A stretch of 64,000 nt of DNA from Halorubrum salipaludis (lineage in GTDB: Archaea; Halobacteriota; Halobacteria; Halobacteriales; Haloferacaceae). Shown in pieces: positions 474 through 22,733 of this stretch (positions within the stretch are counted from its first letter, which is position 1; every line of letters begins with the position of its first letter). The stretch covers positions 248,001 through 312,000 of the forward strand of contig NZ_NSKC01000004.1 of NCBI RefSeq assembly GCF_002286985.1, in the 5' to 3' direction. Made by a program: the position numbers and the translations under genes. The notes beneath the pieces are model-generated. The model did no database searches. It was not told the DNA's origin and saw nothing but the letters and a program-made list of their open reading frames with translations.

Positions 474-2165
474 ATGAGCGGCTCCGAGTCGGGCGTGATC
501 GCGGAGTTCCGCGAGGAGATCGACCCGATCGTCTTCGCGTTCGGCGCCCTGATAACGCTGGGCGTGATCGCCGCGTTCTTCATCAGCCCGTCGACCGTCG
601 AGAACGGGATCTCGTCGCTCAACGACCAGCTGCTCGGCGCGTTCAACTGGGCGCTGCTGTTGATCGTCTTCCTGATCGTGCTGTTCCTCCTGTTCCTGAT
701 CGTGGGGCCGTGGGGCGGGATCAAGCTCGGCGACGAGCCGCCTGAGTACAGCTTCCTCTCCTTCTTCGCGATGCTGTATTCCGCCGGTTTCGCGGCCGGC
801 GTCGTGTTCTGGGGGCCGACCGAGGCGCTGTTCTACTACGACAACCCCTCGCCGCTGTTCAGCGGCGTCGAAGGGGGAACGGCCGAGGCGATGACGGTCG
901 CCGTCCAGCAGACGCTGTTCCACTGGGCGCTGCCGCAGCTCGCGGTGTTCACGATCATGGGGATCGCGATCGGCTACTTCGCGTACAACTACGAGGACGT
1001 TCCGCTGCGCGTCTCCTCGGCGCTCACGCCGATCCTCGGCGCCGACAACCTCGACGGTCCGGCCGCGAAGGTCGTCGACATCCTCGCCGTCTTCGCGACG
1101 ATCGGCGGCGTCGCCACGTCGCTCGGGTTCATCGGGAGCCAGTTCGTCACCGGCCTCGACTACCAGTGGGGGATCAACATGGGCGATCTGGGGATCCTGC
1201 TCGTCGTCACCATGATGACCCTGCTGTTCACGACCTCGATGGTGCTCGGGGTCGACAAGGGGATCCGGCGGCTGTCGAACTTCAACATGATCCTGTTCGT
1301 CGCGCTCATGCTCGTGACGTTCGTCGTGGGCCCGACGCTGTTCCTCGTGCTGCTCGGCACGCAGGCGTTCGGCGGGATGATAACCGAGTTCGTCTCGATG
1401 AGCCTCTTCACCGGCGCCGGGCCGATGGGCGGCGGCGACGCCAGCGCGACCGGCTGGATGAACGCGTGGACGGTGTTCTACTGGGCGTGGGCGCTCTCGT
1501 GGTCGCCGTTCGCGGGGCTGTTCATCGCCCGGATCTCGAAGGGACGGACCGTCCGCGAGGTGGCGTTCACGGGGATCGTCGCGACCTCCGGCGCCACCAT
1601 CCCGTGGTTCACCTTCGTCGGCGGCACCGCTGTCTGGGCGCAGCACAACGGGATCGCCGACTTCGGCGCGGTGATGTCGGGCGAGGCCGGAGCGGAGGTG
1701 TCCGGATTCATCCTCTTCGAGGCGCTGAACTTCACGCTGAACCTCGGTGGGGCGTCCGTCAGCCTCCCGGTCGGGTCGGTGTTGATCTACGCGTTCATGA
1801 TCCTCGTGACGACGTTCTTCGTCACGTCGGCGGACTCCTCGACGCTCGCCGTCTCGATGATGACCACCGGCGGGAAGGCGAAGCCGTCGAACATCAATCG
1901 GGTCTTCTGGGGCGTCGTCCTCGGGATGACCGCGGCGATCCTGATGATCCTGGGCGGCAGCGGCAGCGCGAACACGCTCCAGCAGGCGGCGATCATCACC
2001 GGCACGCCGTTCGCCTTCGTCTGCTTCCTCGCGATGGTGGCGCTGATCAGGGACTTCGGCAAGCACTACGACCAGGTGCTCTTACAGGACGAGACGGTGC
2101 TGTACGGCCGGAGCGACGAGGCGGACTCGCGGTCCGGACAGGCCGCCGGCTCGGACGACGACTGA
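474..2165 (+). CDS. BCCT-family betaine/carnitine/choline-type transporter
   Basis: A 563-residue membrane protein with about 12 hydrophobic segments. It carries the BCCT signature around FYWAWALSWSPFAGLFIAR, followed by the SKGRTVRE loop. BCCT carriers import quaternary amines or compatible solutes such as glycine betaine and ectoine, driven by Na+ or H+. The ATG is supported by GAGGTG at 461-466. The next gene, a class III aminotransferase, follows in the same direction but has its own promoter. Beside an ectoine-hydrolase-like gene, an ectoine or hydroxyectoine importer is the most likely role. Substrate cannot be read from the sequence, and betaine or choline remain possible. Confidence 0.85.
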   Translation: MSGSESGVIAEFREEIDPIVFAFGALITLGVIAAFFISPSTVENGISSLNDQLLGAFNWALLLIVFLIVLFLLFLIVGPWGGIKLGDEPPEYSFLSFFAMLYSAGFAAGVVFWGPTEALFYYDNPSPLFSGVEGGTAEAMTVAVQQTLFHWALPQLAVFTIMGIAIGYFAYNYEDVPLRVSSALTPILGADNLDGPAAKVVDILAVFATIGGVATSLGFIGSQFVTGLDYQWGINMGDLGILLVVTMMTLLFTTSMVLGVDKGIRRLSNFNMILFVALMLVTFVVGPTLFLVLLGTQAFGGMITEFVSMSLFTGAGPMGGGDASATGWMNAWTVFYWAWALSWSPFAGLFIARISKGRTVREVAFTGIVATSGATIPWFTFVGGTAVWAQHNGIADFGAVMSGEAGAEVSGFILFEALNFTLNLGGASVSLPVGSVLIYAFMILVTTFFVTSADSSTLAVSMMTTGGKAKPSNINRVFWGVVLGMTAAILMILGGSGSANTLQQAAIITGTPFAFVCFLAMVALIRDFGKHYDQVLLQDETVLYGRSDEADSRSGQAAGSDDD

Positions 2166-2191: not shown

Positions 2192-2237
2192 ATTTATAAC
2201 AAGTTTTAATGTACGTTGTACACATTATCCGTGTATG
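2192..2237 (+). promoter_or_regulatory. Promoter with operator overlapping the aminotransferase start
   Basis: A TATA box (TTTATAA, about 2192-2198) lies some 37 bases before the ATG, so the transcript should have a very short leader. The inverted repeat TACAC-N7-GTGTA spans 2219-2235, and its last base is the A of the start codon. A protein bound here would cover the transcription start, consistent with repression. The half-site is shared with other promoters in the cluster. Confidence 0.55.
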
Positions 2238-3596
2238 GATAGGGACACGGCGGAACCCACCGCGGACGCACTCCCCGGCCCGAACGCGCGGCGTTGGGTC
2301 GAATTCCACCAGGAGAACGCCGCACCCAGCGAGTACTCCCACGAGTTCGTCTGGGACGTGACCCGCGAGGCGGACGGTCCCTTCGTCACGGACGTCGACG
2401 GCAACGTCCTCCTCGATTTCACCTGTCACATCGGCGCCGCGCCGCTCGGGTACAACAACGAGAAGGTGCTCTCGAAGCTCCGGGAGTTCGACCTCGTCGA
2501 GCCGATGAAGATCGCCGGCCAAGACATGTACTTCGGCTCGGGGGCGACGCCGGAGGACGCCTCGTTCCCCGGATCGAGCCACCTCATGGAGAAGCTGACC
2601 GAGGTGTCCGGCCACTACGGGATGGACACCGTGTTCCTCTCGAACTCGGGCGCGGAGGCGATGGAGAACGCGATGAAGATCACGCACGACCACCGCGCGC
2701 CGGCGAAGTACGGCGTGGCGTTCGAGGGGAGCTTCCACGGCCGCACGCTCGGGACCCTCTCGCTGACGAAGTCGAAGGACGTGTACACCCGCCACTACCC
2801 CGAGATCAGCGGCATCGAGACGGTACCGTTCTGCGCGGACCGCGGCTGCGACGCCGCGAGCTGCGACTGCGGCTTCTTCGCGGGCGGCGGCTCGCGGCTC
2901 CGGAACATGCTCGCGCCCGAGGGCGGCCACGTCGACCCCGACGAGATCGCCTTCCTGACGCTGGAGCCGGTCCAGGGCGTCGGCGGCTACCGCTTCCCGA
3001 GCGAGGCGTTCATGGAGGAGGTCGCGGCCGTCACCGAGGAGTACGACATCCCGCTCGTCGTCGACGAGATCCAGTCGGGCGTCGGCCGGACCGGCGAGAT
3101 GTGGGCGGCGGACCACTACGCCATCGAGCCGGACGTGATCGCGAGCGCGAAGGCCCTTCGCGTCGGCGCGACGATCTCCCGGTCGGACGTGTTCCCCTCG
3201 GAGAAGAACCGGCTCGGCTCGACGTTCGGCGGCGGCGACGTCCTCGGCTCGATGATGGGGACGTTCACGCTGGAGGCGATCCAGGAGCACGACCTGCTGG
3301 CCAACGCGACCCGTCGCGGGCGGCAGGCGCGGGAGCTCCTCCGCGACGACGCGCCCGACACCGTCGTCGACGTCCGCGGCAAGGGGCTGATGCTCGCGGT
3401 GGAGTTTGACACGCCCGAGCGCCGCTCCGCGGCCGTGGAGGCCGCCCTCGACCGCGGGCTCCTGACGCTCGGCTGCGGGAAGAAGACGATCCGGCTGCTC
3501 CCGCCGCTCGACGCGACCGAACGCGAGATCGCGCTCGGCACCGGGATCTTCCTCGACGCGATCGACGCCGTCAGCGCGAGCGCGCCGGCGAACTGA
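2235..3596 (+). CDS. Class III PLP aminotransferase, candidate diaminobutyrate transaminase (DoeD-like)
   Basis: A 453-residue fold-type I PLP enzyme. Visible are the SNSGAEAMENAMK cofactor-binding segment (about 136-148), VVDEIQSGVGRTG with PLP aspartate D277, and catalytic K306 in SAKAL. Class III enzymes move omega-amino groups to 2-oxoglutarate. In this cluster the expected step is L-2,4-diaminobutyrate to aspartate semialdehyde. Unusual is a cysteine-rich insertion with C200, C205, C210 and C212 (C-x4-C-x4-C-x-C), which could bind metal. Glutamate dehydrogenase nearby could recycle the glutamate formed. GABA or lysine as substrate cannot be excluded. Confidence 0.75.
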   Translation: MDRDTAEPTADALPGPNARRWVEFHQENAAPSEYSHEFVWDVTREADGPFVTDVDGNVLLDFTCHIGAAPLGYNNEKVLSKLREFDLVEPMKIAGQDMYFGSGATPEDASFPGSSHLMEKLTEVSGHYGMDTVFLSNSGAEAMENAMKITHDHRAPAKYGVAFEGSFHGRTLGTLSLTKSKDVYTRHYPEISGIETVPFCADRGCDAASCDCGFFAGGGSRLRNMLAPEGGHVDPDEIAFLTLEPVQGVGGYRFPSEAFMEEVAAVTEEYDIPLVVDEIQSGVGRTGEMWAADHYAIEPDVIASAKALRVGATISRSDVFPSEKNRLGSTFGGGDVLGSMMGTFTLEAIQEHDLLANATRRGRQARELLRDDAPDTVVDVRGKGLMLAVEFDTPERRSAAVEAALDRGLLTLGCGKKTIRLLPPLDATEREIALGTGIFLDAIDAVSASAPAN

Positions 3597-3706: not shown

Positions 3707-4981
3707 TCAGCCGTCGTCTCGCACCGACCGTTCGACCACGGAGACCCCGTCGAGCGCCGAGACCGCCGTCAACACCGCGTCGAGGTGATCGGGGCCGCGC
3801 CCTTCGATCCCGATCGTCACCGGCGTGCGGTTTGGGTGATCGGCCGCCGTGCGGCGCGCGCGCTCGAGGGCGTCGAGTTCGGCGCCTTCGGCGGTCACCG
3901 CCTCCACGACCTCGCCGACTCGCGCCGGCCACGACGCGAGCGCGAGCCGCGCCTCGGCGTAGCGCCCGAGCTCGAACAGCCCGGTGCGCGCGAGCTCGGC
4001 GTGATCGGTGAGGTTCGCGTTGCCGCCCGAGACGACGACGGCCGGGTTGGCGTCGGCGAGGTCCAGCCGGTCCGAGAGGGCGGCGGCGAGCGGCGCGGCG
4101 CCGGCGCCCTCGGCGACCGTCTTCTGGCGTTCGGCCAGCAGCGTCACGGCCGCGGCGATCTCGCGATCGGAGACGGTCACCACGTCGTCGACGACCTCGC
4201 TCGCGATCGCGAACGTGGTCTCCAGCATGCGCGTGTCGGCGATCCCCTCGGCGACCGTGTCCACGCCGTCGAGCGGTCGGATCTCACCGGCCTCCAGCGA
4301 CGGTCCGGCGTGGGCCGCCCCCTCGGGCTGAACGCCGACGACACGGACCTCCCGGTCCGCGGCCGCCGTCGCCGTCCCGATACCGGAGATGAGCCCGCCG
4401 CCGCCGATCGAGACGAGCACGGTGTCCATCGCGGGGTACTGCGCCAGCAGTTCGAGCCCGACCGTCCCCTGTCCGGCGACGACGGCCGCGTCGTCGAAGG
4501 GGTGGACGAACGTCTCGCCGGTCTCTTCGGCGCGCTCCAGGGCGTGTTCGTAGGAGCGCTCGTAGATGTCGCCCTCGACGAGCACGGTCGCCCCGTACTC
4601 CCGCGTCGCCGCGATCTTCGCCGCCGGGGTCACCTCGGGGACGACGATCGTCGTGTCGATCCCGAGCAGGTCGCCCGCGAGGGCCACGCCCTGCGCGTGG
4701 TTGCCCGCGCTGGCGGCGATCACCCCGGTCTCGCGCTCGGCCGGCGAGAGCTGCGCCATCGCGTTGTAGGCCCCGCGGATCTTGAACGAGCCGGTCCGCT
4801 GGAGCTGTTCGAGCTTGAGCCCAAGCGACGCGGCCCCGCTCATGTCGGCGAAGGTCCGCGAGGTGTCGAGCGGCGTCCGGTGGACGACGTTCGCGAGCCG
4901 GCGGCGGGCGGCCTCGATGTCGTCGACCGTGAGGGCCGGACCCCGTTCGGCCTCGTCACTCGCGGAATCCCCGTCAGTCAT
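3707..4981 (-). CDS. Threonine dehydratase-like PLP lyase (IlvA/EutB type) with ACT-like tail
   Basis: A 424-residue fold-type II PLP enzyme with catalytic lysine in SFKIRGAYNAM, the SAGNHAQGVA loop and the glycine-rich SIGGGGLISG phosphate-binding loop. The last 75 residues resemble an ACT domain. Family members deaminate threonine, serine or 3-hydroxyaspartate, and EutB of bacterial hydroxyectoine operons belongs to the same superfamily. Its start overlaps the stop of the M20 gene by 8 bases, so the two are co-translated. That coupling suggests a catabolic job, perhaps removing ammonia from a hydroxylated intermediate. The ACT-like tail and length fit ordinary IlvA, so threonine deamination is the conservative call. 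Confidence 0.75.
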   Translation of the reverse strand: MTDGDSASDEAERGPALTVDDIEAARRRLANVVHRTPLDTSRTFADMSGAASLGLKLEQLQRTGSFKIRGAYNAMAQLSPAERETGVIAASAGNHAQGVALAGDLLGIDTTIVVPEVTPAAKIAATREYGATVLVEGDIYERSYEHALERAEETGETFVHPFDDAAVVAGQGTVGLELLAQYPAMDTVLVSIGGGGLISGIGTATAAADREVRVVGVQPEGAAHAGPSLEAGEIRPLDGVDTVAEGIADTRMLETTFAIASEVVDDVVTVSDREIAAAVTLLAERQKTVAEGAGAAPLAAALSDRLDLADANPAVVVSGGNANLTDHAELARTGLFELGRYAEARLALASWPARVGEVVEAVTAEGAELDALERARRTAADHPNRTPVTIGIEGRGPDHLDAVLTAVSALDGVSVVERSVRDDG

Positions 4982-6299
4982 CGGCGCTCTGGCGGTCGGC
5001 CGCCGGGTCCTCCACCTGCGGAACGGGATGTCTCCGTTCGAGGTCGCGGACCGCGCCCACGAGCACGTCCACGCCGTGCCGGAGGCTCCGCTCGTCCACG
5101 TCGAACGTCGGGGTGTGGTGGCTCGTCGGGTGGTCCGTGCCCACGATGAGGTACGTCGCCAGGCCGCCGTCCCCCTGGACGCGCTCCATCAGGAACGTCG
5201 CGTCCTCGCTCGCGCCGAAGTCCGCCGCCGGGAGCACGGCGTCGATCCCGTCGACCCCCTCGGCGACGTTGCTCACCAGCGCCTGGAGCTCCGGGTCGCT
5301 GTCCGCGCGCGGCGACTCGCTCACCAGGTCGACGGTCGCGCGGCAGCCGTGCATCGTCGCGGCGCCGCGCATGACGCGCTCGAACTCGCGTTTCATGAAC
5401 TCCATCAGCTCGGTCGTCTCGCCGCGCACCTCGGCCTCCATGCGCGCGCGCTCGGCGATGACGTTGCTCGCGGTGCCGGCCTCGGCCTTCCCGACGTTGA
5501 CCCGGGTCATCCCGTCGGCGTGGCGGGCGATCCCGTAGGCGTTCACGATCGCCGTCCCCATCGCCTGCATCGCGTTGTCGCCCTCGTTCGGGGCCTTGCC
5601 GGCGTGCGCCGACGTGCCCTCGATCGTCGCGTCGAGGTGCGCCATCGCCAGCGGCTTCTCGATCCCGGCGACGACCTCGCCGGTCGGGTGATCTAAGCCG
5701 ACGTGGACCGCGAGCAGGTAGTCGAGGTCGTCCGCGAAGCGGCTCTCGGCCATCGGCCGGCCGCCGCCGCCGGTCTCCTCGGCGGGCTGGAAGAAGACGA
5801 CCAGCCGCCCGCCGAAGTCGCTCTCGGCGATCGCCTCGAGGACCGCCAGCCCCCACGTCATGTGGGCGTCGTGGCCGCAGGCGTGCATCGTCCCGTCGAT
5901 CTCCGAGCGGAACCCCTCGTCGACGGGGTCGTGGTCGGGGTCGGTCGACTCCTCGATGAACAGGCCGTCGATGTCGACGCGGAGCCCGATCGCGGGGCCG
6001 TCGCCGCGGTCGAGCACCGCGACGGCGCCGGTGTTGCCGCCGGCCATGCGGTCGAGCAGCTCCTCGTCCGCGCCGTGCTCGCGGGCGCGGTCGATCCACG
6101 GGCCGAGCTCCGTCTCCGGGACGGCCATGCGGTCGGCCGGGTCGTACGCGTCCGGTCCGACCGCGAGCTCGTCGACGCCGATCGACCGGATCTCCTCGAC
6201 GAGCGTCGCCGTCGTGAGGAACTCGCGCCACGCGGGCTCCGGGTGGCGGTGGAATCGTCGGCGGACGCTGGCGAGCCGATCGCGGATCGGTTCGTTCAT
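4974..6299 (-). CDS. M20D-type amidohydrolase, candidate N-acetyl-diaminobutyrate deacetylase
   Basis: A 441-residue M20 metallohydrolase related to amidohydrolases that cleave N-acyl amino acids. Metal-site residues are visible in DGTMHACGHDAH (H139, C141, H143, H146) and QPAEE (E174/E175), with a dimerisation-type insert around GTSAHAGKAPNEGDNAMQ. The ATG is at 6297-6299; longer upstream reading is a shadow. It is first in an operon with the dehydratase-like gene. Bacterial ectoine operons use DoeB, of the aspartoacylase family, to remove the acetyl group. No DoeB is visible here, so this enzyme is the natural substitute. That role is inferred from context. Confidence 0.75.
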   Translation of the reverse strand: MNEPIRDRLASVRRRFHRHPEPAWREFLTTATLVEEIRSIGVDELAVGPDAYDPADRMAVPETELGPWIDRAREHGADEELLDRMAGGNTGAVAVLDRGDGPAIGLRVDIDGLFIEESTDPDHDPVDEGFRSEIDGTMHACGHDAHMTWGLAVLEAIAESDFGGRLVVFFQPAEETGGGGRPMAESRFADDLDYLLAVHVGLDHPTGEVVAGIEKPLAMAHLDATIEGTSAHAGKAPNEGDNAMQAMGTAIVNAYGIARHADGMTRVNVGKAEAGTASNVIAERARMEAEVRGETTELMEFMKREFERVMRGAATMHGCRATVDLVSESPRADSDPELQALVSNVAEGVDGIDAVLPAADFGASEDATFLMERVQGDGGLATYLIVGTDHPTSHHTPTFDVDERSLRHGVDVLVGAVRDLERRHPVPQVEDPAADRQSADD

Positions 6300-6434: not shown

Positions 6435-7439
6435 ATGACACAACAGCCCGCAGACTCCGACGGACAGCAGCCGGCCGATCCCGACGTGGTCGTGTTGCGA
6501 GAGGGGACCGAAGGCCTGTCGATGGCGTCGTACGCGGACGCGCTCCGCGAGCGGCTCCCGGACCGGACGGTCGCGCTCGCCCGGACGCCCGCGGAGGAGC
6601 GCGAGCTCGTGCCGAGGGCCCGCGCGGTGACCGGCATCACGCTCGACGCCGATCTGCTCGACCGCGCCGACCGGCTGGAGCTGTTCGCCTGTACCTTCGC
6701 CGGCACCGACCACGTCCCGACCGACGCGCTCCGGGAGCACGGCGTGGCCGTGACGAACGCGGGCGGGATCCACGCGCCGGGCATCGCCGAGCAGACGATC
6801 GCCAACATGCTCGTGTTCGCGCGGAACCTCCACGAGGGGTTCCGCCGGAAGGCGAACGGCGAGTGGCGCCACTTCCAGTCGCGCGAGTTCACCGACAGCA
6901 CGGTGACGGTCGTGGGGCTCGGGTCGATCGGGCAGGCGGTCGTCCAGCGGCTCGCCGGCTTCGAGGTCGAGACGATCGGGATCCGCTACACGCCGGAGAA
7001 GGGCGGGCCGACCGACGAGGTGCTGGGCTTCGACGACGACGACGTCCACGAGGCGTTCGCGCGGAGCGACTACGTCGTGCTCGCGTGCCCCCTCAACGAC
7101 CTGACTCGCGGGTTGGTCGGGGAGGCGGAGCTGGCGACGCTCCCGCCGAACGCGGTCGTCGTGAACGCGGCTCGCGGCGGGCTCGTCGACACCGACGCGC
7201 TCGTCGCCGCGCTCCAGACCGAGGGGATCCGCGGTGCCGCCCTCGACGTGACCGACCCCGAGCCGCTCCCGTCGGACCACGTCCTCTGGGACCTGGAGAA
7301 CTGCCTCATCACCCCGCACACCGGCGGTCACACGCCCAAACACTGGGACCGGCTGGCCGACATCGTCGCGGACAACGTCGCGGCGCTCGACGCGGGCGAG
7401 GAGCTGGAGAACGCGGTCGTCACGCCGGACGACGACTGA
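6435..7439 (+). CDS. D-2-hydroxyacid dehydrogenase (NAD-dependent)
   Basis: A 334-residue enzyme with the Rossmann fingerprint GLGSIGQAVVQRL, the substrate-binding arginine in NAARGGLVD, the catalytic glutamate region DVTDPEPLP and the histidine in TPHTGGH. It should interconvert a 2-oxoacid and a D-2-hydroxyacid with NAD(H). The first 30 residues are a polar tail. It diverges from the M20-dehydratase operon across the shared palindrome. In an ectoine pathway it could handle a 2-oxo or hydroxy product of the lyase, but the substrate is unknown and a glyoxylate/hydroxypyruvate reductase role is equally possible. Confidence 0.8.
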   Translation: MTQQPADSDGQQPADPDVVVLREGTEGLSMASYADALRERLPDRTVALARTPAEERELVPRARAVTGITLDADLLDRADRLELFACTFAGTDHVPTDALREHGVAVTNAGGIHAPGIAEQTIANMLVFARNLHEGFRRKANGEWRHFQSREFTDSTVTVVGLGSIGQAVVQRLAGFEVETIGIRYTPEKGGPTDEVLGFDDDDVHEAFARSDYVVLACPLNDLTRGLVGEAELATLPPNAVVVNAARGGLVDTDALVAALQTEGIRGAALDVTDPEPLPSDHVLWDLENCLITPHTGGHTPKHWDRLADIVADNVAALDAGEELENAVVTPDDD

Positions 7440-7499: not shown

Positions 7500-8822
7500 T
7501 CAGGGCCAGAGGCCGCGCGCGCCCTTCGCCTCGGCGATCCGCGAGAGCGCGACGACGTAGGCGGCGTCCCGCCACGTCAGGTCGCTGTCGACGACCTCGT
7601 CGCGCACGTTCTCCCACGCCTCCAGCATCTGCTCTTCGAGCTCCTCGTTGACGCGTTCGAGCGACCACGTCCGCCGGTTGATGTCCTGGAGCCACTCGAA
7701 GTACGAGACGGTGACGCCGCCCGCGTTCGCGAGGATGTCCGGGATCACCGCCACGCCGCGCTCTGCTAAGATCTCGTCGGCGGCGAACGTCGTTGGCCCG
7801 TTTGCGCCCTCGACGACGATGTCCGCGGCGATGTCATCGGCGTTGTCCGCGGTGATCACGTTGCCGACGGCCGCGGGGATCAGCACGTCGACGTCGAGTT
7901 CGAGGACCTCCTCGTTCGACAGCGTCGCCGGGGCCTCGTGGGAGAGCACCGCCTCGGGCTCCTCCTCGTGCGTGGGAACGTCCCGGGTGTCGAGCCCGTC
8001 GGGGTCGTAGATCGCGCCGTTCACGTCGCTGACGGCGACGACGGTCGCGCCCCAGTCGTCGAGCAGTCGGGCCGCGTTGGCGCCGACGGACCCGAACCCC
8101 TGGACCGCGACGGTCGTCTCCGCGAGGTCGCGGTCGTAGTGGTCGACCGCCTCCCGCGCGGCGATCGCCGTCGACCGTCCCGGCGCCGCCTCGCGGCCGT
8201 ACGACCCGCCGATGACGGGGGGTTTCCCGGTGACGACGCCGGGGATCGTCTCGCCCTGTTGCATCGAGTAGGCGTCCATGAACCACGCCATCGTCTGGGC
8301 GTCGGTCCCCATGTCCGGCGCGGGCACGTCCTTCGTCGGCCCGACCACGTCGCGCAGCTCCTCGGCGAAGCGCCGGGTGAGTCGCTCGTGCTCGTCCTCG
8401 CTCAGCGACTTGGGATCGACCGCGATCCCGCCCTTTCCGCCGCCGAACGGGAGGTCCATCACGGCGCACTTCCAGGTCATCCACATCGAGAGCCCGGTGC
8501 ACTCGGCGGCGGAGACCTCCGGGTGGTAGCGGAGCCCGCCCTTGTACGGGCCGCGGACGTCGTCGTGCTGGGCCCGGTAGCCGGTGAACACGTCGACGGT
8601 GCCGTCGTCGCGTTCGAGCGGGACGGAGACCTGCTGGACCCGCGTGGGGTGTTTGAGGCGCTCCACGATCGCCGGGTCGACGTCGACGTTGGTCGCCGCG
8701 CGCTCGAGCTGTTTGCGCGCGGTGGCGAGCGTTGATTCGGACGTTTCGTCGGTCGCCGCGGTGGTCGCTTCGTCGGGCGTTTCGTCTGTCGCTTCGTCGT
8801 CGGCGGTGGGTGTCGTGCTCAT
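7500..8822 (-). CDS. gdhB: Glutamate dehydrogenase (Glu/Leu/Phe/Val dehydrogenase family)
   Basis: A 440-residue hexameric-type dehydrogenase. Visible are the catalytic lysine segment in [16 protein letters not shown], the [11 protein letters not shown] region and the NAD(P)-binding [13 protein letters not shown]. It interconverts glutamate with 2-oxoglutarate and ammonia. A polar, Thr/Glu-rich tail of about 30 residues precedes the enzyme core. It lies downstream of the ectoine-hydrolase-like gene on the same strand, separated by a tandem repeat. Placed among two aminotransferases, it would release ammonia from the glutamate they produce. Haloarchaea usually have several paralogues, so the symbol is tentative. 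Confidence 0.85.
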
Positions 8823-8867
8823 AGTGGGTGTCGGCCGTAGTGTGGTGGTGGTCGGCGCAGCGGTGGT

Positions 8868-8958
8868 ACGGCGGTGGTCAGCGCGGCGGTGGTCAGCGCG
8901 GCGGTGGTCAGCGCGGCGGTGGTCAGCGCGGCGGTGGTCAGCGCAGCAGTGGTCAGCG
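8868..8958. repeat. 15-bp GC-rich tandem repeat
   Basis: About six copies of GCGGCGGTGGTCAGC run head to tail, degenerating at both ends. They fill the gap between the glutamate dehydrogenase start (8822) and the ectoine-hydrolase stop (9006). The period is a multiple of three, but neither flanking gene is in frame with it. Copy number is likely to vary between strains. It sits where a promoter for the dehydrogenase would be expected, and no clear TATA box is visible there. Confidence 0.85.
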
Positions 8959-9005: not shown

Positions 9006-10187
9006 TCAGGCCGTGAACAGCTCGCGGGGGAACTCGGCGAGCGTCTCCGCGCCGGTGGACGTGACGCGGAACGTCTCGCTGATCTCCATGCCGATCTCGT
9101 CGGTCCAGATGCCGGGGATCATGTGGAACGTCATGTCCTCCTCGAGGACGGTCTCGTCGCCCGGGCGGATGCTCGCGGTGTGCTCGCCCCAGTCCGGCGG
9201 GTAGCCGAGCCCCATCGAGTAGCCGATGCGGTCCTCCTTCTCGAGCCCGTACTGCTCGATGGTGGTCCGCCACGCCTTCTCGACGGTCTCGCATTTCACG
9301 CCGGGCGCCGCGGCGTCGAGTGCCGCCTCCAACCCCTCGACGACGATGTCGGCGGTCTCCTGCAGTTCGGCCGGCGGGTCGCCCACGAAGGTGGTCCGGG
9401 CCAGCGGCGAGTGGTAGCGGTGCCGGCAGCCGGAGAGCTCGATGATCACCGGGTCGCCGTCCTCGAACTCCCGATCCGTCCACGTGAGGTGGGGGGTGCC
9501 GGTGTGGTCGCCCGACGGCATCAGGGGGACGATAGCCGGGTAGTCGCCGCCGAACTCGTCAGTCCCGTCGATCAGCTGCTGGTAGATGGCGCCGGCGACC
9601 TCGTACTCCGGAACGCCCTCGCCGACGGCGTCGAGGCCGGCCTGCATCGCGTTCTCGGAGATGCGCGCGGCCTGCCGCATGTACTCCAGCTCCTGGTCCG
9701 ACTTCTTGATCCGGAGCCAGCCGACGAGCAGGGTCGCGTCCTCGAACTCGGCGTCCGGGAGGTTCCCCTGCAGGCGCGTGTACGACTTCGCGGTGAAGTA
9801 GGCGGCGTCCATCTCCAGCCCGATGCGCCCGTCCGCGACGCCCAGCTCGTCGAGGACGCCCGCGACGTAGTCCATCGGGTGGAGGTCGTGCGGCGAGTGG
9901 ACGTGGTCGTCGCTGTACGCGCGGATGCTGTCGTCGGAGAGGTGCGTCGTCGCCCGCGCGCCGTCGCCGTCCATGTCGCGCCCGATCCACACCGGCTCGT
10001 CGCGGTCGGGCGTGACCACGACCGCCTGGTGGACGTAGAAGGACCAGCCGTCGTAGCCGGTCAGGTAGTTCATGTTCGCCGGGTCGGCGACCACGATCGC
10101 GTCGAGGTCGCGCTCGCGCAGCCGCTCCCGCGTCCGGGCCACCCGGCGCTCGTACTCGGACTCGTCGAAGATGTGTTCCCGTGGCAT
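9006..10187 (-). CDS. doeA: Ectoine hydrolase-like M24/creatinase-fold enzyme (DoeA/EutD type)
   Basis: A 393-residue creatinase/aminopeptidase-P fold protein. Segments such as LTGYDGWSFYVHQ, FGGDYPAIVPLMPSG, HLTWTD and YPPDWGEHTAS match what I recall of the bacterial ectoine hydrolases DoeA/EutD, which open ectoine to N-acetyl-diaminobutyrate. The M24 metal ligands are mostly gone: IELSG and SPLAR replace the two aspartate motifs, GYSMG replaces the histidine motif and FHMIPG lacks the glutamate; only E368 of GMEISE remains. That points to metal-independent ring hydrolysis rather than Xaa-Pro peptidase activity. The gene diverges from the aldehyde oxidoreductase over a shared promoter. Homology is judged by eye and memory. 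Confidence 0.8.
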   Translation of the reverse strand: MPREHIFDESEYERRVARTRERLRERDLDAIVVADPANMNYLTGYDGWSFYVHQAVVVTPDRDEPVWIGRDMDGDGARATTHLSDDSIRAYSDDHVHSPHDLHPMDYVAGVLDELGVADGRIGLEMDAAYFTAKSYTRLQGNLPDAEFEDATLLVGWLRIKKSDQELEYMRQAARISENAMQAGLDAVGEGVPEYEVAGAIYQQLIDGTDEFGGDYPAIVPLMPSGDHTGTPHLTWTDREFEDGDPVIIELSGCRHRYHSPLARTTFVGDPPAELQETADIVVEGLEAALDAAAPGVKCETVEKAWRTTIEQYGLEKEDRIGYSMGLGYPPDWGEHTASIRPGDETVLEEDMTFHMIPGIWTDEIGMEISETFRVTSTGAETLAEFPRELFTA

Positions 10188-10223: not shown

Positions 10224-10266
10224 AGTATAAATTTATCGTGTATATTGAAAACACATACTGTGTACA
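10224..10266. promoter_or_regulatory. Bidirectional promoter/operator between doeA-like gene and AOR
   Basis: The 130-bp divergent gap contains a nearly symmetric TATA element, TATAAATTTATC (10226-10237), usable in both directions. Beside it are GTGTATATTG (from about 10239) and the inverted repeat ACACA-TAC-TGTGT (10251-10263), followed by ACAG. Read on the minus strand these give TACACAGTATGTGT and TACACGATAAA, the half-site seen at the other cluster promoters. Joint control of both genes is inferred. Confidence 0.55.
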
Positions 10267-10317
10267 GTTTGGCCTCTTCGGCCGGGATTTTTGTACCGCC
10301 CCCGCGGACACTCGCAC

Positions 10318-11985
10318 ATGCTACACAGTACCGGACCGTTGCTGTCGATCGACGTGGGCGAGCGGACGACGACGGAAACCGACATCACGGAGGTTCAGGA
10401 GCGGTATATCGGCGGGCGCGGCGTGGCGACCCGGCTCGCCCACGAGCGGATCCCGTTCGACGCGGACCCGCTCGGTCCCGAGAACCGGGCGGTGTTCACC
10501 ACCGGACCGATGCAGGCCTCCCAGATGAGCTTCACGGGCCGGACGAACTGCACCGCGGTGTCGCCGCTGACGGACGGGCTCCTCTCGTCGAACGCGGGCG
10601 GGTTCGTCTCCCGGCACCTCGCGGCGACGGGGTACGGGGCGGTGGAGCTGGCCGGCGCGAGCGACGAGCTGGTGGTCGTCCACGTGCGCGACGACGGCGT
10701 CGAGTTCGAGGCCGTGCCGGAGCTCGCCGGCGCGACCGTCTCGGAGACGACCGGCTACCTGGAGGCCGAACGCGACATCTCCAGCGACCGGACGGCCGTG
10801 ATCGGCCCGGCGGGCGAGAACGAGGTCCGGTTCGCGTCGGTGATGACGACCGAGGAGCGCGCGTTCGGCCGCGGGGGGCTGGGCGCGGTCCTCGGCTCGA
10901 AGAACGTCAAGGCCGTCACGTTCGGCGGCGACTCGGCGCCCGAGATCGAGATCCCGGCGACCGCGGGCGAGATCCACCGCGAGGCCGCCACCGAGGACCA
11001 CATCATGAAAGAGCAGGGGACGGTGGCCGTGATGGACCTGGCCAACGAGATGGACGGGCTCCCGTCGTACTACTTCTCCGAGCGCTCCTTCGCGGGCGTC
11101 GATGGGATCAACGGCGACGCCGTCGCGGAGAAGAAGTACAAGAAGGGGACCTGTTCGGCCTGCGCGTTCGCCTGCAAGCTCCCGACCCGCGACGAGACCC
11201 GCGGCGTCGAGACCGAGGGGCCGGAGTTCGAGGTGGCGATGGCGTTCGGTTCGAACTCGGGGATCGACGACATCGTCGACGTGATGGAGTCGAACCGGCT
11301 GTGCGACGAGTACGGGCTCGACGCCATCTCCGCGGGCAACACGATCGCCGCGTACCTCGCCGCTGAAGGCGAGTTCGGCAACCGCGAGCTCGTCTGGGAC
11401 CTCGTCGAGAAGACCGCCCACCGCGACGGCGTGGGCGATCAGCTCGCGGAGGGGATCGGCCGGATCCACGACGATCTCGGCGTCGGCAACTGGTCGGTGA
11501 AGAACATGGACTTCGCGGCCCACGAGGGGCGGCTGCTCCACGGGCAGGCGCTCTCGTACGCGGTCGCGAACCGCGGCGCCGACCACATGTACGCGACGTT
11601 CTACTCGGTCGAGTACCCGCTCGTCGAGGAGGACGAGGCGATGGAGCCCGCAGGGTTCGAGGGGAAGGCCGAGCGGCTCGTGCAGCGCGAGAACCTGATG
11701 GCGCTCAACGACAGCGGCGTCGTCTGTAAGTTCTCGCGGGACTTCATGACCCCCGAGCGCTACGAGCTGCTCTTCGACGCCGACTTCGAGGAGCTGCTCG
11801 CGGCGGGCGCGCGGACCGTGACCTTGGAGCGCCACTTCAACAACCGGCGCGGGATCGACGGCGACGACGATCGGCTCCCGTACGAAGAGGAGCTCCCCGG
11901 ACTCGACGACGCCATCAACTCGTACTACGAACTCCGCGGGTGGAACGACGACGGGACGGTGCCCGACGCGGCGCTGCCGGCGTAG
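10318..11985 (+). CDS. Aldehyde ferredoxin oxidoreductase (tungsten/molybdopterin family)
   Basis: A 555-residue AOR-family enzyme. The N-terminal pterin-binding region contains GGRGVATRLAHERI and GRGGLGAVLGSKNVKA. Three [4Fe-4S] cysteines are in CSACAFAC (C279, C282, C286), with a likely fourth in VVCKFSRDF. Family members oxidise aldehydes to acids and pass electrons to ferredoxin. I take the ATG at 10318; an upstream TTG would add nine unsupported residues. It diverges from the ectoine-hydrolase gene over a shared operator, so aspartate semialdehyde, the aldehyde of ectoine breakdown, is an attractive substrate in place of the NAD-dependent DoeC. The substrate is inferred, not shown. Confidence 0.85.
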   Translation: MLHSTGPLLSIDVGERTTTETDITEVQERYIGGRGVATRLAHERIPFDADPLGPENRAVFTTGPMQASQMSFTGRTNCTAVSPLTDGLLSSNAGGFVSRHLAATGYGAVELAGASDELVVVHVRDDGVEFEAVPELAGATVSETTGYLEAERDISSDRTAVIGPAGENEVRFASVMTTEERAFGRGGLGAVLGSKNVKAVTFGGDSAPEIEIPATAGEIHREAATEDHIMKEQGTVAVMDLANEMDGLPSYYFSERSFAGVDGINGDAVAEKKYKKGTCSACAFACKLPTRDETRGVETEGPEFEVAMAFGSNSGIDDIVDVMESNRLCDEYGLDAISAGNTIAAYLAAEGEFGNRELVWDLVEKTAHRDGVGDQLAEGIGRIHDDLGVGNWSVKNMDFAAHEGRLLHGQALSYAVANRGADHMYATFYSVEYPLVEEDEAMEPAGFEGKAERLVQRENLMALNDSGVVCKFSRDFMTPERYELLFDADFEELLAAGARTVTLERHFNNRRGIDGDDDRLPYEEELPGLDDAINSYYELRGWNDDGTVPDAALPA

Positions 11986-12160
11986 GGACCGTCCGCGCTG
12001 CCCGACTACGGCACACCGGATCCCGTTGCGTCCTCGTCGGCCTCGCCTCCGACGGAGCGTGTGCGGTGAGACGGAGGAGAGAGTACCGAATCGTCTCCGC
12101 CGTCGACGGTGTGAGATGAGGCGCAATTGTTATTTCAATCATGGTAATACAGTATCAATA

Positions 12161-12754
12161 ATGGATGCGCCGGGAGACGAACGCGCGGTTACGCCGGCCG
12201 TCGGAGTCGTGCTAATTGTCGCGATTACTGTTGTTCTCGCGGGAGTAATCGGTGTGTTCGCGTTTGGGATCGTCGACGATCTCGGAGAGAGGCCCACCTT
12301 TGCTGCGCTCGACTTGACATTTGAGGAGGAACCCGCTTCGGCACCAGATTACGACGAGTTTCGCTGGGACCTCAAACTCACCAACAGAGGAGGCGAGACG
12401 GTGGAGGCTGACGAAATCGTTGTCTACCTCGATCACGGAGACCAGCGGGTTACTGGAACGCTCAACAGATCGCTCAGATCAGGCGAAACGGTCGAGCTCA
12501 CGGTAGTCCATAACAACCAAGACGGCGAGACGATTCCGGATGGTCTCAGCTGTTCAGACGTCAACGTGGCGTGTCGGTTGGCCGGTGATGAGGACAACTA
12601 TCCCGAGGACGACCGGGTCCGACTCCAGATGATACACGAGCCATCGAATTCGATTCTCTACCGAGAAGAGATCGGCATCTCCGGTGAGTACGGGATATTC
12701 AACGGAAACCCGAGTGATATTGACATCACAGATGAAACGCTGACGTTTGCGTAA
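12161..12754 (+). CDS. Type IV pilin-like protein (archaeal pilin N-terminus)
   Basis: A 197-residue protein starting MDAPGDERAVTPAVGVVL. The short charged leader, a cleavage region near RA-VTP and one hydrophobic helix (about residues 12-34) define archaeal type IV pilins processed by PibD. The rest is a beta-rich extracellular domain with two cysteines (SCSDVNVAC). Base composition is clearly more AT-rich than its neighbours, as is common for haloarchaeal pilins under diversifying selection. It interrupts the catabolic cluster and is probably its own unit. A second pilin lies at 16192. Adhesion or surface structure is likely; its partners are not in the window. Confidence 0.85.
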   Translation: MDAPGDERAVTPAVGVVLIVAITVVLAGVIGVFAFGIVDDLGERPTFAALDLTFEEEPASAPDYDEFRWDLKLTNRGGETVEADEIVVYLDHGDQRVTGTLNRSLRSGETVELTVVHNNQDGETIPDGLSCSDVNVACRLAGDEDNYPEDDRVRLQMIHEPSNSILYREEIGISGEYGIFNGNPSDIDITDETLTFA

Positions 12755-12780: not shown

Positions 12781-14142
12781 CTACTCCGCGGTCGCCGCGA
12801 TCGCGTCCGCGATGATCTCCGTGCCGACCTCCGCCTGCCGCTGCGTCAGTACGAGCGGCGGGAGCAGGCGCACGACGTTGCCGTACTGGCCGGCCGTCCA
12901 GACGAGCACGCCGTGCTCGTAGCAGTACTCTTGGATCGCGTCGACGCGGTCGTCGTCGGGCTCGCCGTCCGCGTCGACGAACTCGGCGCCGACGAAGAGG
13001 CCCTTGCCGCGGACCTGGCCGAGCCCCGGATCGCCCTCGCCCGCGTCGCGGAGGCGGTCGCGGATCCACGCGCCGACCTCCGTCGCGTGGTCGAGCAGGT
13101 CGTGCGACTCGATGTACTCGATCGCGCGCAGGCCGCCGACCATCGCGGGGACGTGCCCCCGGTAGGTGCCCGCGTGGTCGCCCGACCCCCACGTGTCGAG
13201 GTCCTCGTGGTACATCGTCCCGGAGAGCGGCTGGCCGTTGCCGCCGAGCGCCTTCGCGGTCGTCATCACGTCCGGCGTCACGTCGTAGTGCTCGGAGGCC
13301 CACCACTCGCCGGTGCGCCCCATGCCGACCTGGATCTCGTCGAACACCAAGGGGAGGTCGTTCTCGTCGGCGATCTCGCGCAGCCCCGAGAGGAACCCCT
13401 CGGGCGGGACGACGACGCCGCCCTCACCCTGGATGGGCTCGACGAAGATGCCCGCCGGGTCCGTAAGGCCGCCGTACGGCTCCTCGACGATCGCTCTGAC
13501 CTCTTCGAGCGCGCGGTCGACCGACTCCTCGGGGGAGCGGCCTTCGCGGAACGGGTACGGGAAGGGCGCGTGCACCACGTCGGGTAAAAGCGGCGCGTAC
13601 GGCTTCTTGAACTTCTTGTTCGACGTGATGCTCATCGCGCCGGTCGTCGCGCCGTGGTAGGAGTTGCGGAACGCGAGCAGCCCGTTGCCGCCCGTGTTGT
13701 ACTTCGCGAGCTTGATCGACGCCTCGACGGCGTCGCTGCCGGTGGGGCCGCCGAAGACGAAGCGGCTGTTGCCGGCGAGGCTCCCGGGCGCGATCTCGTC
13801 GAGCTTGTCGATGAGGTCGAGGCGCGGCTCCGTCGGGAAGTCCACGGTGTGGGTGAGCTTGTCGATCTGCTCGTGGACGCCCTCGTTGACGTACGGGTTC
13901 GCGTGGCCGACGTTGTACACGCCGATGCCGGCGAAGAAGTCGAGGAACAGGTTGCCGTCCGCGTCCTTCAGGGACGCCCCCTTGCCCTCCTCGAACGCGA
14001 GCGGAATGTCGTTCGGGTACGCGACCGCGCTGCTGTCGATCGCCTCCTGTCTGTCGAGGAGGCGGCGCGAGTTCGGGCCGGGGACTTGGTCGACGCTCGG
14101 CTCCTCCGCGAAGTGCAAGTCGTGGATGGGCGGTCCCGCCAT
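12781..14142 (-). CDS. Class III aminotransferase of the diaminobutyrate-2-oxoglutarate type
   Basis: A 453-residue PLP enzyme. FVFGGPTGSDAVEASIKLAK is close to the segment typical of EctB/DatA-type diaminobutyrate transaminases; VFDEIQVGMGRTG carries the PLP aspartate and TTAKALGG the catalytic lysine. It likely interconverts L-2,4-diaminobutyrate and aspartate semialdehyde using glutamate/2-oxoglutarate; GABA activity is possible. I choose the MAGPPIHDL start at 14142; an in-frame ATG at 14169 would add MWACRIGWA. No ectA or ectC lies in the window, which argues for breakdown rather than ectoine synthesis. It is the second class III aminotransferase of the region. Confidence 0.8.
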   Translation of the reverse strand: MAGPPIHDLHFAEEPSVDQVPGPNSRRLLDRQEAIDSSAVAYPNDIPLAFEEGKGASLKDADGNLFLDFFAGIGVYNVGHANPYVNEGVHEQIDKLTHTVDFPTEPRLDLIDKLDEIAPGSLAGNSRFVFGGPTGSDAVEASIKLAKYNTGGNGLLAFRNSYHGATTGAMSITSNKKFKKPYAPLLPDVVHAPFPYPFREGRSPEESVDRALEEVRAIVEEPYGGLTDPAGIFVEPIQGEGGVVVPPEGFLSGLREIADENDLPLVFDEIQVGMGRTGEWWASEHYDVTPDVMTTAKALGGNGQPLSGTMYHEDLDTWGSGDHAGTYRGHVPAMVGGLRAIEYIESHDLLDHATEVGAWIRDRLRDAGEGDPGLGQVRGKGLFVGAEFVDADGEPDDDRVDAIQEYCYEHGVLVWTAGQYGNVVRLLPPLVLTQRQAEVGTEIIADAIAATAE

Positions 14143-14170
14143 GGCCCAACCGATACGACACGCCCACATA

Positions 14171-18531: not shown

Positions 18532-19542
18532 ATGAGTCTCGAACCAATCGACCCGGAAACAGCCGTGGAACTGTACCTCGCCGATCGGGAAGCCGAGGTC
18601 TCCAAGGCAACGCTGTACTCGCACAGCTCTCGCCTCGGTCACTTCGTTCGCTGGTGTGGTGAGGAAGAGATAGACAATCTGAACGTGCTCAGCGGACGGA
18701 CGCTACACGAGTACCGCCTCTGGCGACGTCGTGACGGTGACCTCGCACCCGCTAGCGAGAAGACGCAGATGGACACGCTCCGCGTCTTCGTGAAGTGGCT
18801 CGAGAGCATCGACGCCGTCGTCGACGACCTCCATACGAAGGTCCGGTCGCCCGTCTTACGAGACGGGCAGAACGTCCGTGACGTGATGCTCGAGTCCGAT
18901 CGTGCTGAGGAGGTTCTCGACCACCTCTCGAAGTACGAGTATGCCTCGCGTCCTCACGTCGTTCTCACGCTGATGTGGCACACGATGATGCGAACCGGTG
19001 CAGTCCACTCGCTGGACGTCGACGACTACGACCCGGATGCGCAGTACATCGCTGTCATCCATCGACCTGGGGAGGGAACGACGATCAAGAACGGAAAAGG
19101 TGGAGAGCGGCTGATCGCGTTATCGAACGACGTGTGCCAGGTTCTTGACGACTGGATCGCAGATCGGAGACCCGATGTCGACGACGAGTTCGGCAGGCGA
19201 CCACTCGTATCGACGGTAGACGGGCGTGCGCATCGATCGACGCTCCGAGGAGATTGTTACAGATACACAAGGCCCTGTGTTTCTACTGGAGAGTGTCCAC
19301 ACGACCGCGATCCGGAGAGTTGCGAGGCGATGGTGTATACCGCCGCCTTCGACTGTCCCTCGAGCGTCAGTCCACACGCCCTTCGGCGTGGTGGCATCAC
19401 TCACCATCTGAACAGTGATGTTCCGAAAGACATCGTCAGTGACCGTGCAAACGTGACTGCAGGTGTTCTCGACGAACACTACGACCGGCGGAGTCAGCGT
19501 GAGAAAATGGAGCAGCGACGGGGGTACCTCGATAACATCTAA
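18532..19542 (+). CDS. Tyrosine recombinase (XerC/D-like integrase)
   Basis: A 336-residue site-specific recombinase. An N-terminal SAM-like DNA-binding domain (about 10-95) precedes the catalytic domain with R154 (MRTGAVHSLDVDD), HALR (H282, R285), and HYDRR with H316 and nucleophile Y317. The active-site set looks intact. Four cysteines (C249, C255, C264, C275) form a likely metal-binding insert before the HxxR box. It would integrate and excise the surrounding element at tRNA-Arg. It lies directly inside the left repeat and points toward the cargo. Confidence 0.9.
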   Translation: MSLEPIDPETAVELYLADREAEVSKATLYSHSSRLGHFVRWCGEEEIDNLNVLSGRTLHEYRLWRRRDGDLAPASEKTQMDTLRVFVKWLESIDAVVDDLHTKVRSPVLRDGQNVRDVMLESDRAEEVLDHLSKYEYASRPHVVLTLMWHTMMRTGAVHSLDVDDYDPDAQYIAVIHRPGEGTTIKNGKGGERLIALSNDVCQVLDDWIADRRPDVDDEFGRRPLVSTVDGRAHRSTLRGDCYRYTRPCVSTGECPHDRDPESCEAMVYTAAFDCPSSVSPHALRRGGITHHLNSDVPKDIVSDRANVTAGVLDEHYDRRSQREKMEQRRGYLDNI

Positions 19543-19612
19543 GACGTACTCAGTGACTGCCACTTGTTGTCGTCGAGCCGATGCGGGTAGTCGGTAACAA
19601 CATCGACAATAC

Positions 19613-20458
19613 CTACGATCGCGTAAATTCGTCGTGCTTGCCAGTATCTTGAATCCCCTCAGAAGTTCGCTCAGCGAATCCGTATTCCTCGAGATACTCG
19701 TATCGACGTTCGATCTCCTCTTCTGAAACGCCCAACTCAGCGGCTAGTTCGCTTACAGATCTGGGTGCTTTCTCGTCCAACTGTATTCGGAGCTCATATC
19801 CTTCCATGTACCGCTGATAGTACTCCCGAACGACATCATCAAGTGGCGTTTGGATGCCCTCGGTCTCATCGAGTCGCTCCAGAGACGCAGAGACAACCGT
19901 GACGAAGAACTCCCCACCCAAGAGCTCTACTTGGCGTTCGAGTTCGTCTGATATGACATCGAAGTCGAGTTCCGTTTGGACGAGCGTAGCCATGTCACCG
20001 ATGTCGTCCGGACGCTCTGCGACGGCTTTGAACAGGAAGATATCCTCGAACGAGACGAGGCCGACGGAGAAGCTCTCTGAAGAGAGAAACTGTTGGCTCC
20101 GTGCTTGCATCCCGTCGCTGAAGAACAGCTTATCGGCAATCTGGCGATAAAAGACGTCGAACTGGCAGCCGGCATCGTTCCGTACGCAATGGCGTGCGCC
20201 CAGCCGATCGTACTCGTCACCGAGATCGGTGACCTCCTCATAGCCGAGCTCGTCGAGTACGCCCATCAGGCGGCTGAGGGCCGTCTCATCTACAACAACG
20301 AGATCGATGTCCTTGGTCGTGTCCTTGAGAGATGGCTGGTGAAGTGCCATCGCGCCACCACCGATGAGATACGCCTCCACCTCTGTTCGGAGGTGATCCG
20401 CGATCTTCTGAAGTTCGGCCTCGATATAACCACGGCCGAATCGTTCACGAGAGCTCAT
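19613..20458 (-). CDS. Nucleotidyltransferase, AbiEii-like toxin candidate
   Basis: A 281-residue protein with a DNA polymerase beta-type nucleotidyltransferase core: IGGGAMAL (G33-G35) followed by KDIDLVV (D50, D52). The last 60 residues (SVSELAAELGVSEEEIERR) look like a small helix-turn-helix. Such enzymes in AbiE-type systems modify tRNA or related targets and block growth; others are antibiotic or RNA nucleotidyltransferases. Its start overlaps the stop of the upstream HTH gene by four bases (ATGA), so the two are translated together, as in AbiEi-AbiEii pairs. The function as a toxin is inferred from that pairing. Confidence 0.7.
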   Translation of the reverse strand: MSSRERFGRGYIEAELQKIADHLRTEVEAYLIGGGAMALHQPSLKDTTKDIDLVVVDETALSRLMGVLDELGYEEVTDLGDEYDRLGARHCVRNDAGCQFDVFYRQIADKLFFSDGMQARSQQFLSSESFSVGLVSFEDIFLFKAVAERPDDIGDMATLVQTELDFDVISDELERQVELLGGEFFVTVVSASLERLDETEGIQTPLDDVVREYYQRYMEGYELRIQLDEKAPRSVSELAAELGVSEEEIERRYEYLEEYGFAERTSEGIQDTGKHDEFTRS

Positions 20459-21405
20459 AGAGTGACCTCATACTCCCTAGCTGTTTGCTTGAACTCTTCC
20501 CATTCGGGGAGGTGCTCAGCCGTCGTTTCTCCACTGGTCTCCAAGTATTCAATGAGGCCGTCGACGATAGTGCGTAAATCGATCGTCGCCTCAGGGTGAT
20601 AGTGTTCAGCGCGCTCTCGTAGTTCCGTTCGATCGATATCCTGTTTCTGTATCAGTAACAGACAGTACGTTCGGTACCGAGAGCCATCATCGATTAAGAG
20701 AGTATGGCATACTAGCTCAACAGGGTCAACCTCTGTGAGTCGATCTGTCCGGAAGTAGTGGCGGCGGTCGCGGGTGAGCAGTGGAACGCCGAACTCACCG
20801 AACAGTGCTGGTCCAGTTAGATGAAACCCTTCAGTGCTGATGTCGCTGTCGCATGCAAAAAGATACTCGTCGTGTGTTTCCCAGAGGAAATTGAGTCCAA
20901 CGACGTGCTCTCTTGTTTCACGGCGATGCTTCTGATGGAACAGTCCTCGTGCGATCGAGGCCAATACGGTGAATGGCTCGTTGAGACGATACCGAGATTT
21001 CGATTTCCCGATGACACCGACTAGCTGGAGATCATCTAACCGGCGGTAGACTGTTGCCCGACTAACGCCACTTCGCTCGGCTAATTCGGTAGCCGTCCGT
21101 CCTCGGTCAAGATAATAGAGGATTTGTAATCCGGAGCCGGCGAGGAGTGCCGGTAGGTCCATATGGCGATATTCCGTGAGGAGTCCTTCGAGCTGCTCTA
21201 TCGGTTCGATTTCAGTAAGAGAAACCAGCTTTTCTCGACCGCTTTGTTTGGTTTGGACGCAGCCGTAGGCTTCTAATTCGGTGATAACCCGTGAGGCGTG
21301 ACTGGTACTCCACTCGAGTTGGTCAGCGAGTGTACTGATACTCACTTCCGGGTCACCCCCATCTATGAGCTGAGAGATTACCCGCAAGTGACTCTCCGAC
21401 ATCAT
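20455..21405 (-). CDS. Two-winged-helix regulator, AbiEi-like antitoxin candidate
   Basis: A 316-residue protein with two helix-turn-helix units: VSISTLADQLEWSTSHASRVI (about 21-41) and a second at about 105-140 (TELAERSGVSRATVYRRL). The C-terminal half is of unknown fold. It is first in a two-gene operon with the nucleotidyltransferase. A long inverted repeat spans its promoter, which fits negative autoregulation as described for AbiEi antitoxins. A second in-frame ATG follows the first immediately. It may be a plain transcription regulator of a nucleotidyltransferase cassette rather than a true antitoxin. Confidence 0.7.
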   Translation of the reverse strand: MMSESHLRVISQLIDGGDPEVSISTLADQLEWSTSHASRVITELEAYGCVQTKQSGREKLVSLTEIEPIEQLEGLLTEYRHMDLPALLAGSGLQILYYLDRGRTATELAERSGVSRATVYRRLDDLQLVGVIGKSKSRYRLNEPFTVLASIARGLFHQKHRRETREHVVGLNFLWETHDEYLFACDSDISTEGFHLTGPALFGEFGVPLLTRDRRHYFRTDRLTEVDPVELVCHTLLIDDGSRYRTYCLLLIQKQDIDRTELRERAEHYHPEATIDLRTIVDGLIEYLETSGETTAEHLPEWEEFKQTAREYEVTL

Positions 21406-21408
21406 ATT

Positions 21409-21456
21409 GTCTCAAATAACGCAAGTATATTATAAAACAGTTTTGCGATTTGAGAC
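21409..21456 (-). promoter_or_regulatory. Inverted-repeat operator over the HTH gene promoter
   Basis: GTCTCAAAT (21409-21417) and ATTTGAGAC (21448-21456) form a perfect 9-bp inverted repeat. Inside it, CGCAA (21420-21424) and TTGCG (21443-21447) form a second pair. The TATA-like core TATATTATAAAA lies between the arms, and the start codon is only four bases beyond the left arm. Binding by the HTH protein would close its own promoter. Confidence 0.7.
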
Positions 21457-21499
21457 GAAAGGTAGATTTTCTAATATAATTGGCACCGTATCTGACTAA

Positions 21500-22718: not shown

Positions 22719-22733
22719 GTCGTCGAAGATCGC

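Follow-up and report, generated by a model that had tools for sequence, protein, structure and literature searches.

The window analysed here, a 64-kb stretch of the Halorubrum salipaludis genome, contains a cluster in which a BCCT transporter, the class-III aminotransferase AT2, a threonine-ammonia-lyase-like protein (TDH), an M20 amidohydrolase, a D-2-hydroxyacid dehydrogenase, the glutamate dehydrogenase GdhB, a DoeA-like hydrolase, an AOR-family oxidoreductase, a pilin and a second class-III aminotransferase, AT1, follow one another in this order (Table 1). The preliminary description of this DNA had placed a tungsten-type aldehyde oxidoreductase directly divergent from an ectoine-hydrolase-like gene, and the arrangement was confirmed: the AOR reading frame is intact at exactly the coordinates given in Table 1 and matches both family domains, AFOR_N and AFOR_C, while its neighbour on the opposite strand has DoeA of Halomonas elongata as its best match in the PDB.

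Table 1. Genes and promoter features of the DoeA-type cluster, numbered from the first nucleotide of the window.
Feature	Position	Strand	Evidence or remark
BCCT-family transporter, betaine/ectoine type	474-2165	+	PF02028; in most DoeA clusters
Class-III aminotransferase AT2	2235-3596	+	PRK05769, 298 bits
Threonine ammonia-lyase/EutB-like PLP enzyme (TDH)	3707-4981	-	TIGR01127, 380.6 bits (cut-off 378.75)
M20 amidohydrolase, candidate ADABA deacetylase	4974-6299	-	PF01546; TIGR01891, 257 bits
D-2-hydroxyacid dehydrogenase, cluster core	6435-7439	+	PF02826/PF00389; conserved among DoeA clusters
Glutamate dehydrogenase GdhB	7500-8822	-	NF041398, 792 bits (cut-off 620)
DoeA/EutD-like M24-fold hydrolase	9006-10187	-	PDB 6twk/6twj (DoeA), E 6e-113
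Bipartite operator-like element of the DoeA promoter	10232-10265	-	GTACACAGTATGTGT-TTTCAAT-ATACACGATAAA
TATA-like box of the AOR promoter	10286-10296	+	TTTTTGTA; conserved among clade relatives
AOR-family oxidoreductase, AOR-A clade, 555 aa	10318-11985	+	PF02730 and PF01314
Class-III aminotransferase AT1, recurrent AOR partner	12781-14169 (likely start 14142)	-	PF00202

The hydrolase is called DoeA-like rather than DoeA because its score against the DoeA model TIGR02993, 456.7 bits, falls under the cut-off of 613. Its sequence shares 48% identity with a rhizobial DoeA and 56% with a Priestia protein from a eutB/eutC cluster. In the alignment, the two positions that hold Asp metal ligands in prolidases are occupied by Glu250 and Pro261, the same replacement of one Asp by Glu and loss of the other that is seen in H. 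elongata DoeA (Glu255 and Pro266). A covalent mechanism via Glu255 is reported. The model score, the identities and the Glu250/Pro261 pattern together make an ectoine-hydrolase-like chemistry likely for the window enzyme.

Several of the other genes resemble those of bacterial ectoine clusters to varying degrees. AT1 scores 406 bits against PRK05769 and 380 bits against the diaminobutyrate transaminase model PRK06938, with 32% identity to Ensifer Atf; the whole genome holds five class-III transaminase genes only. TDH gives 257 and 231 bits with the EutB models and is 40% identical to Ensifer EutB. The M20 amidohydrolase reaches just 108 bits against the DoeB2 model, which has a cut-off of 550, and is thus not assigned to the DoeB/EutE deacetylases. 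GdhB is proposed to regenerate 2-oxoglutarate for the transaminases. Just upstream of gdhB, between it and doeA, lies a 15-bp tandem repeat, GGTGGTCAGCGCGGC, in 7.7 copies (8847-8958), and a type IV pilin-like gene (12155-12754) separates AOR from AT1; the latter is missing from that place in Halobaculum (L004).

Both AOR domains are matched at full length (AFOR_N, E 5.5e-63, 212.8 bits; AFOR_C, E 5.9e-77, 259.8 bits), which puts the window protein in the AOR/WOR family of tungsten-type aldehyde oxidoreductases. The nearest PDB structure is 1aor (258 bits). With Pyrococcus furiosus AOR and the other AORs sensu stricto (1aor, 9mqx, 9g7j, 8c0z) it shares, besides the two domains, the Fe4S4 cysteines (CX2CX3C...C; C279, C282, C286 and C470) and the residue Thr243 and the catalytic Glu313 and His448, the window AOR having T235 conserved and E305 and H423 as the equivalents of the latter two. 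On the other hand, it is shorter (555 aa versus about 605 aa), and Tyr427, Tyr312 and Tyr452 of the P. furiosus enzyme are replaced in it by His402, Phe304 and Thr427, respectively. When 53 AOR sequences were aligned, the Fe4S4 cysteines and the equivalents of Thr243, Glu311, Glu313 and His448 (P. furiosus numbering) proved invariant; the Tyr427 position is His in all 53, the Tyr312 position Phe in 51, and the Tyr452 position Thr, Val or Ser. The change of Tyr427 to His is clade-wide and not restricted to ectoine clusters. Tyr427 is a catalytic second-shell residue conserved in most AORs, but His is found there in C. formicoaceticum AOR and in WOR5/ASOR (PMC12096430), and since the residue varies inside the family, its replacement does not exclude AOR/WOR membership. 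Given the conserved cofactor residues and this replacement, the group to which the window enzyme belongs, here called AOR-A, forms a clade of its own, one that is probably active and has an altered proton relay. A paralogue on another contig of the same genome (C12) keeps the canonical Tyr and belongs to a different clade. WOR83 of Haloferax volcanii (9q1t), a haloarchaeal tungsten-dependent enzyme of the family, is further from the window AOR (195.5 bits) than P. furiosus AOR is. The formaldehyde oxidoreductase FOR (1b25/1b4n) gives 168.9 bits in an alignment reaching only residue 432, and its conserved Tyr is replaced in the window AOR. Glutaric semi- or dialdehyde is the presumed substrate of FOR (PMC12096430), so that semialdehyde use by the AOR family has a precedent. 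By analogy with the family, ferredoxin would be the electron acceptor. The genome has just a weak TupA-like gene (172.7 versus 400 bits).

The association of AOR with DoeA extends well beyond the window. We compared 292 haloarchaeal genomes, 103 of which have DoeA, and found the AOR-A clade, defined at ≥74% identity, in 63. Where both are present (34 genomes), no more than 20 kb separates AOR-A from DoeA in 27, compared with 0.47 genomes expected within 25 kb; this linkage is not due to chance. Nor is it one inherited accident, as the ectoine-linkage label changes at least 3 times on the tree of the 53 AOR sequences. In the genus of the window organism and its near kin, AOR directly abuts DoeA, while in Haloprofundus, Haladaptatus, Halomarina, Halopiger and others it is usually found 9-20 kb away, at the opposite end of the cluster, where it and AT1 stand back to back and a gene for a Rid protein often adjoins; in Haladaptatus caseinilyticus and in genome G122, it is placed between AT1 and DoeA. 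Of the 18 AOR-bearing DoeA loci that were read, which cover several families, 17 have AT1 no more than 3 kb from AOR. Among the 37 AOR-A loci without DoeA, a class-III transaminase is found at this distance or closer in 7, versus none of the 20 loci of the sister clade AOR-B. The pattern as a whole points to oxidation of transaminase-made aldehydes by AOR. Five loci (L126, L127, L132, L136 and L009) combine AOR with a class-III transaminase and an Lrp regulator, in some cases also with an agmatinase-family gene; these might represent a further pairing of transaminase and AOR, one that handles polyamine or guanidino compounds.

The DoeA cluster can do without AOR, and AOR also occurs outside it. 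There is no linked AOR in 76 of the 103 DoeA genomes, and most of these also have no linked aldehyde dehydrogenase (ALDH). In one congener, G209, whose DoeA is 91% identical to that of the window, AOR has been deleted while the cluster has otherwise been kept except for the TDH gene; GdhB was not seen in the stretch of G209 that was read. The deletion has left a scar (L111:9090-9173), a 3' remnant of the last 28 AOR codons upstream of DoeA. The space up to AT1 is now occupied by two other genes, one SDR-like and one for a protein that is probably exported. Conversely, the AORs of G194 and G226 are 93-94% identical to the window enzyme and nested within the ectoine-linked clade of the 53-sequence tree, yet they stand downstream of a CurA-like reductase, with no AT1 and in genomes where the search for DoeA found none.

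It had also been claimed that AOR and the hydrolase gene share a divergent promoter and operator. The pair is indeed divergent, and a real conserved element lies between the two genes; however, this element belongs to the DoeA promoter, and AOR has a TATA-like box of its own. The DoeA-AOR spacer measures 130 bp in the window and 224-236 bp in ten relatives, and the comparison indicates that the former is a shortened form of the latter. The element, a 34-bp bipartite motif (nTAnACAnTATCnGTnnnnAnnnTACACGAAAAA), precedes DoeA in most clusters, with or without an adjoining AOR; at the DoeA promoter it recurs in nearly all such clusters of haloarchaea, even where there is no AOR in the vicinity. 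In the window it begins about 78 bp upstream of the DoeA ATG, scores 56.7 bits with a weight matrix built from 47 DoeA upstream sites, and is both the sole strong site in the 64 kb and a unique match in the genome at ≤2 mismatches. Weaker copies precede AT2 (2203-2236, 13.4 bits) and the hydroxyacid-dehydrogenase/M20 pair, and a related element, judged by eye, is seen at the AT1 promoter of clusters with a back-to-back AT1-AOR pair. The TATA-like box, about 30 bp upstream of the AOR ATG, is unchanged in G194 and G226, congeners devoid of both DoeA and the element. Since the motif tracks DoeA and not AOR, the shared-operator argument was dropped, although control of AOR by the DoeA-promoter element is possible.

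As the preliminary description had stated, no aldehyde dehydrogenase is encoded in the locus: PF00171 has no match in the window or anywhere on its contig (C22). The genome (3.5 Mb, 99.85% complete) does have such matches on contigs C1, C26, C23, C12 and C21, among them four full-length ALDHs, all off the window's contig. One of them (C23:69403-70773) is a clear succinate-semialdehyde-type dehydrogenase (SSADH; NF006916, 742 bits against a cut-off of 521), so that the search for a DoeC-like dehydrogenase elsewhere, which the description had called for, yielded an unlinked DoeC-family enzyme, and the idea that the genome has none was rejected. The same unlinked SSADH occurs in 8 of 9 AOR-linked congeners, counting the window genome. 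A second SSADH-like ALDH, with 586 bits to PRK09406, is found within 30 kb of DoeA in 6 of the 76 genomes whose DoeA clusters have no AOR (0.77 expected) and in none of the 27 with a linked AOR. In G138 and G281 this ALDH stands back to back with DoeA, in the very arrangement of the window AOR, and the DoeA clusters of Ensifer and Priestia also have an ALDH. G209, which has lost AOR, carries the G138-type ALDH elsewhere in its genome. In three Halobaculum genomes (G088, G097 and G196), AOR is in the cluster and neither SSADH type of their relatives was found; for G088 and G196 the G138-type enzyme is absent from among the matches listed, an absence further backed for G088. Within the genus, AOR and ALDH are complementary (p 0.009), a value confounded by shared ancestry; we have downgraded it as proof because a single DoeA lineage largely accounts for the AOR-less genomes and the other SSADH type is also present in most of the AOR-linked congeners. 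The alternation of SSADH-like ALDH and AOR at the same slot speaks for a step, next to the transaminase, at which an aldehyde is oxidised.

AOR had been proposed to act as the aspartate-semialdehyde oxidase of the ectoine locus. With the regulatory argument gone, the proposal now rests on the 27 of 34 linked cases, on the AT1 neighbour and on the ALDH in the same slot, and we put at about 0.5 the probability that AOR serves as the aldehyde-oxidising step, downstream of AT1, of a DoeA-type (probably ectoine or hydroxyectoine) cluster. In such a pathway, BCCT would import the substrate, DoeA would open the ectoine ring, the M20 amidohydrolase would take off the acetyl group, and AT1 (or AT2) would convert diaminobutyrate to aspartate semialdehyde, which we infer to be the likeliest substrate of AOR. 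Oxidation to aspartate would take place at a tungsten (or molybdenum) bispterin site, with electrons leaving through the Fe4S4 cluster, probably to ferredoxin, and GdhB would recycle the amino acceptor. While gene content, linkage, ALDH alternation and intact cofactor residues were observed directly, the substrates, the metal, the electron acceptor and the order of steps are deduced from them.

An assignment of AOR to the ectoine pathway has to be weighed against a broader role, in which it would be a general amino-aldehyde or short-aldehyde oxidase, protective, recruited to any place where aldehydes arise from a class-III transaminase or some other source, and accessory in the ectoine locus rather than obligatory. 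This is a rather unlikely reading, though one that many observations fit: the neighbours of AOR-A include other transaminases, Lrp regulators and agmatinase-like genes, many of its locations are unrelated, it stands alone beside the CurA-like reductase in G194 and G226, it was lost from G209, and a broad aldehyde range is common among known AORs (PMC12096430). What an accessory role would not predict is as many as 27 linked cases, mostly beside AT1, together with an ALDH in the same slot.

If instead the unlinked SSADH performed the DoeC step, AOR would have no connection with ectoine. The NF006916 score, the description of DoeC as SSADH-related (PMC5924519), the presence of the gene in nearly all AOR-linked congeners and the AORs of G194 and G226 with no operator all agree with this; yet the enzyme is missing from the three Halobaculum genomes that have AOR in the cluster, the AOR-DoeA linkage statistics speak against it, and neither the weight-matrix scan nor the genome search at ≤2 mismatches found an operator-like element at the SSADH gene of the window genome, so that we regard it as improbable. 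Very unlikely, in our view, is a third possibility, that AOR oxidises hydroxyectoine-derived 3-hydroxy-aspartate semialdehyde and that TDH deaminates the product to oxaloacetate. TDH does score 304 bits against threo-3-hydroxyaspartate ammonia-lyase, next to its EutB scores of 231-257 bits, and a hydroxyacid dehydrogenase belongs to the cluster core, but TDH is found in many AOR-less clusters, and the model that it fits best, with a score barely over the cut-off, is that of ordinary threonine ammonia-lyase.

Compared with the bacterial doeABCD and eutABCDE-atf-ssd systems, the window cluster has in common a DoeA-like hydrolase, a transaminase, an EutB-like enzyme and a transporter. It differs in having the M20 amidohydrolase in place of DoeB/EutE, AOR in place of DoeC/Ssd and a transporter of the BCCT type; thus it is not a canonical doeABCD cluster, which would include a DoeC/Ssd ALDH. 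Neither EnuR nor EutC was seen in the haloarchaeal DoeA clusters compared with the bacterial ones. Putative EutD clusters with aminotransferase and BCCT genes were provisionally reported in Halobacteria in 2026 (PMC13188858). AOR and ferredoxin go unmentioned in the main text of that report.

More tentatively, and doubtful as it stands, the His-for-Tyr AORs might form a haloarchaeal subfamily specialised for the amino-semialdehydes made by class-III transaminases, having displaced the NAD(P)-dependent DoeC so that aerobic osmolyte breakdown feeds ferredoxin via a tungsten enzyme. If the ectoine assignment of AOR is true, aerobic haloarchaea would need a tungsten (or molybdenum) enzyme to break down ectoine, the electrons of ectoine would go to ferredoxin rather than to NAD(P)H, and a physiological role would be found for one of the orphan AORs that are common in these organisms. 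The natural swaps, with AOR or ALDH at one slot and the AOR deletion in a close relative, make the assignment directly testable in tractable strains.

Beyond the cluster, a probable restriction-modification island occupies positions 18532-23771 of the window, with genes for an integrase, an HVO_2833-type HTH protein, a D12-class DNA adenine methylase and an Mrr-type endonuclease.
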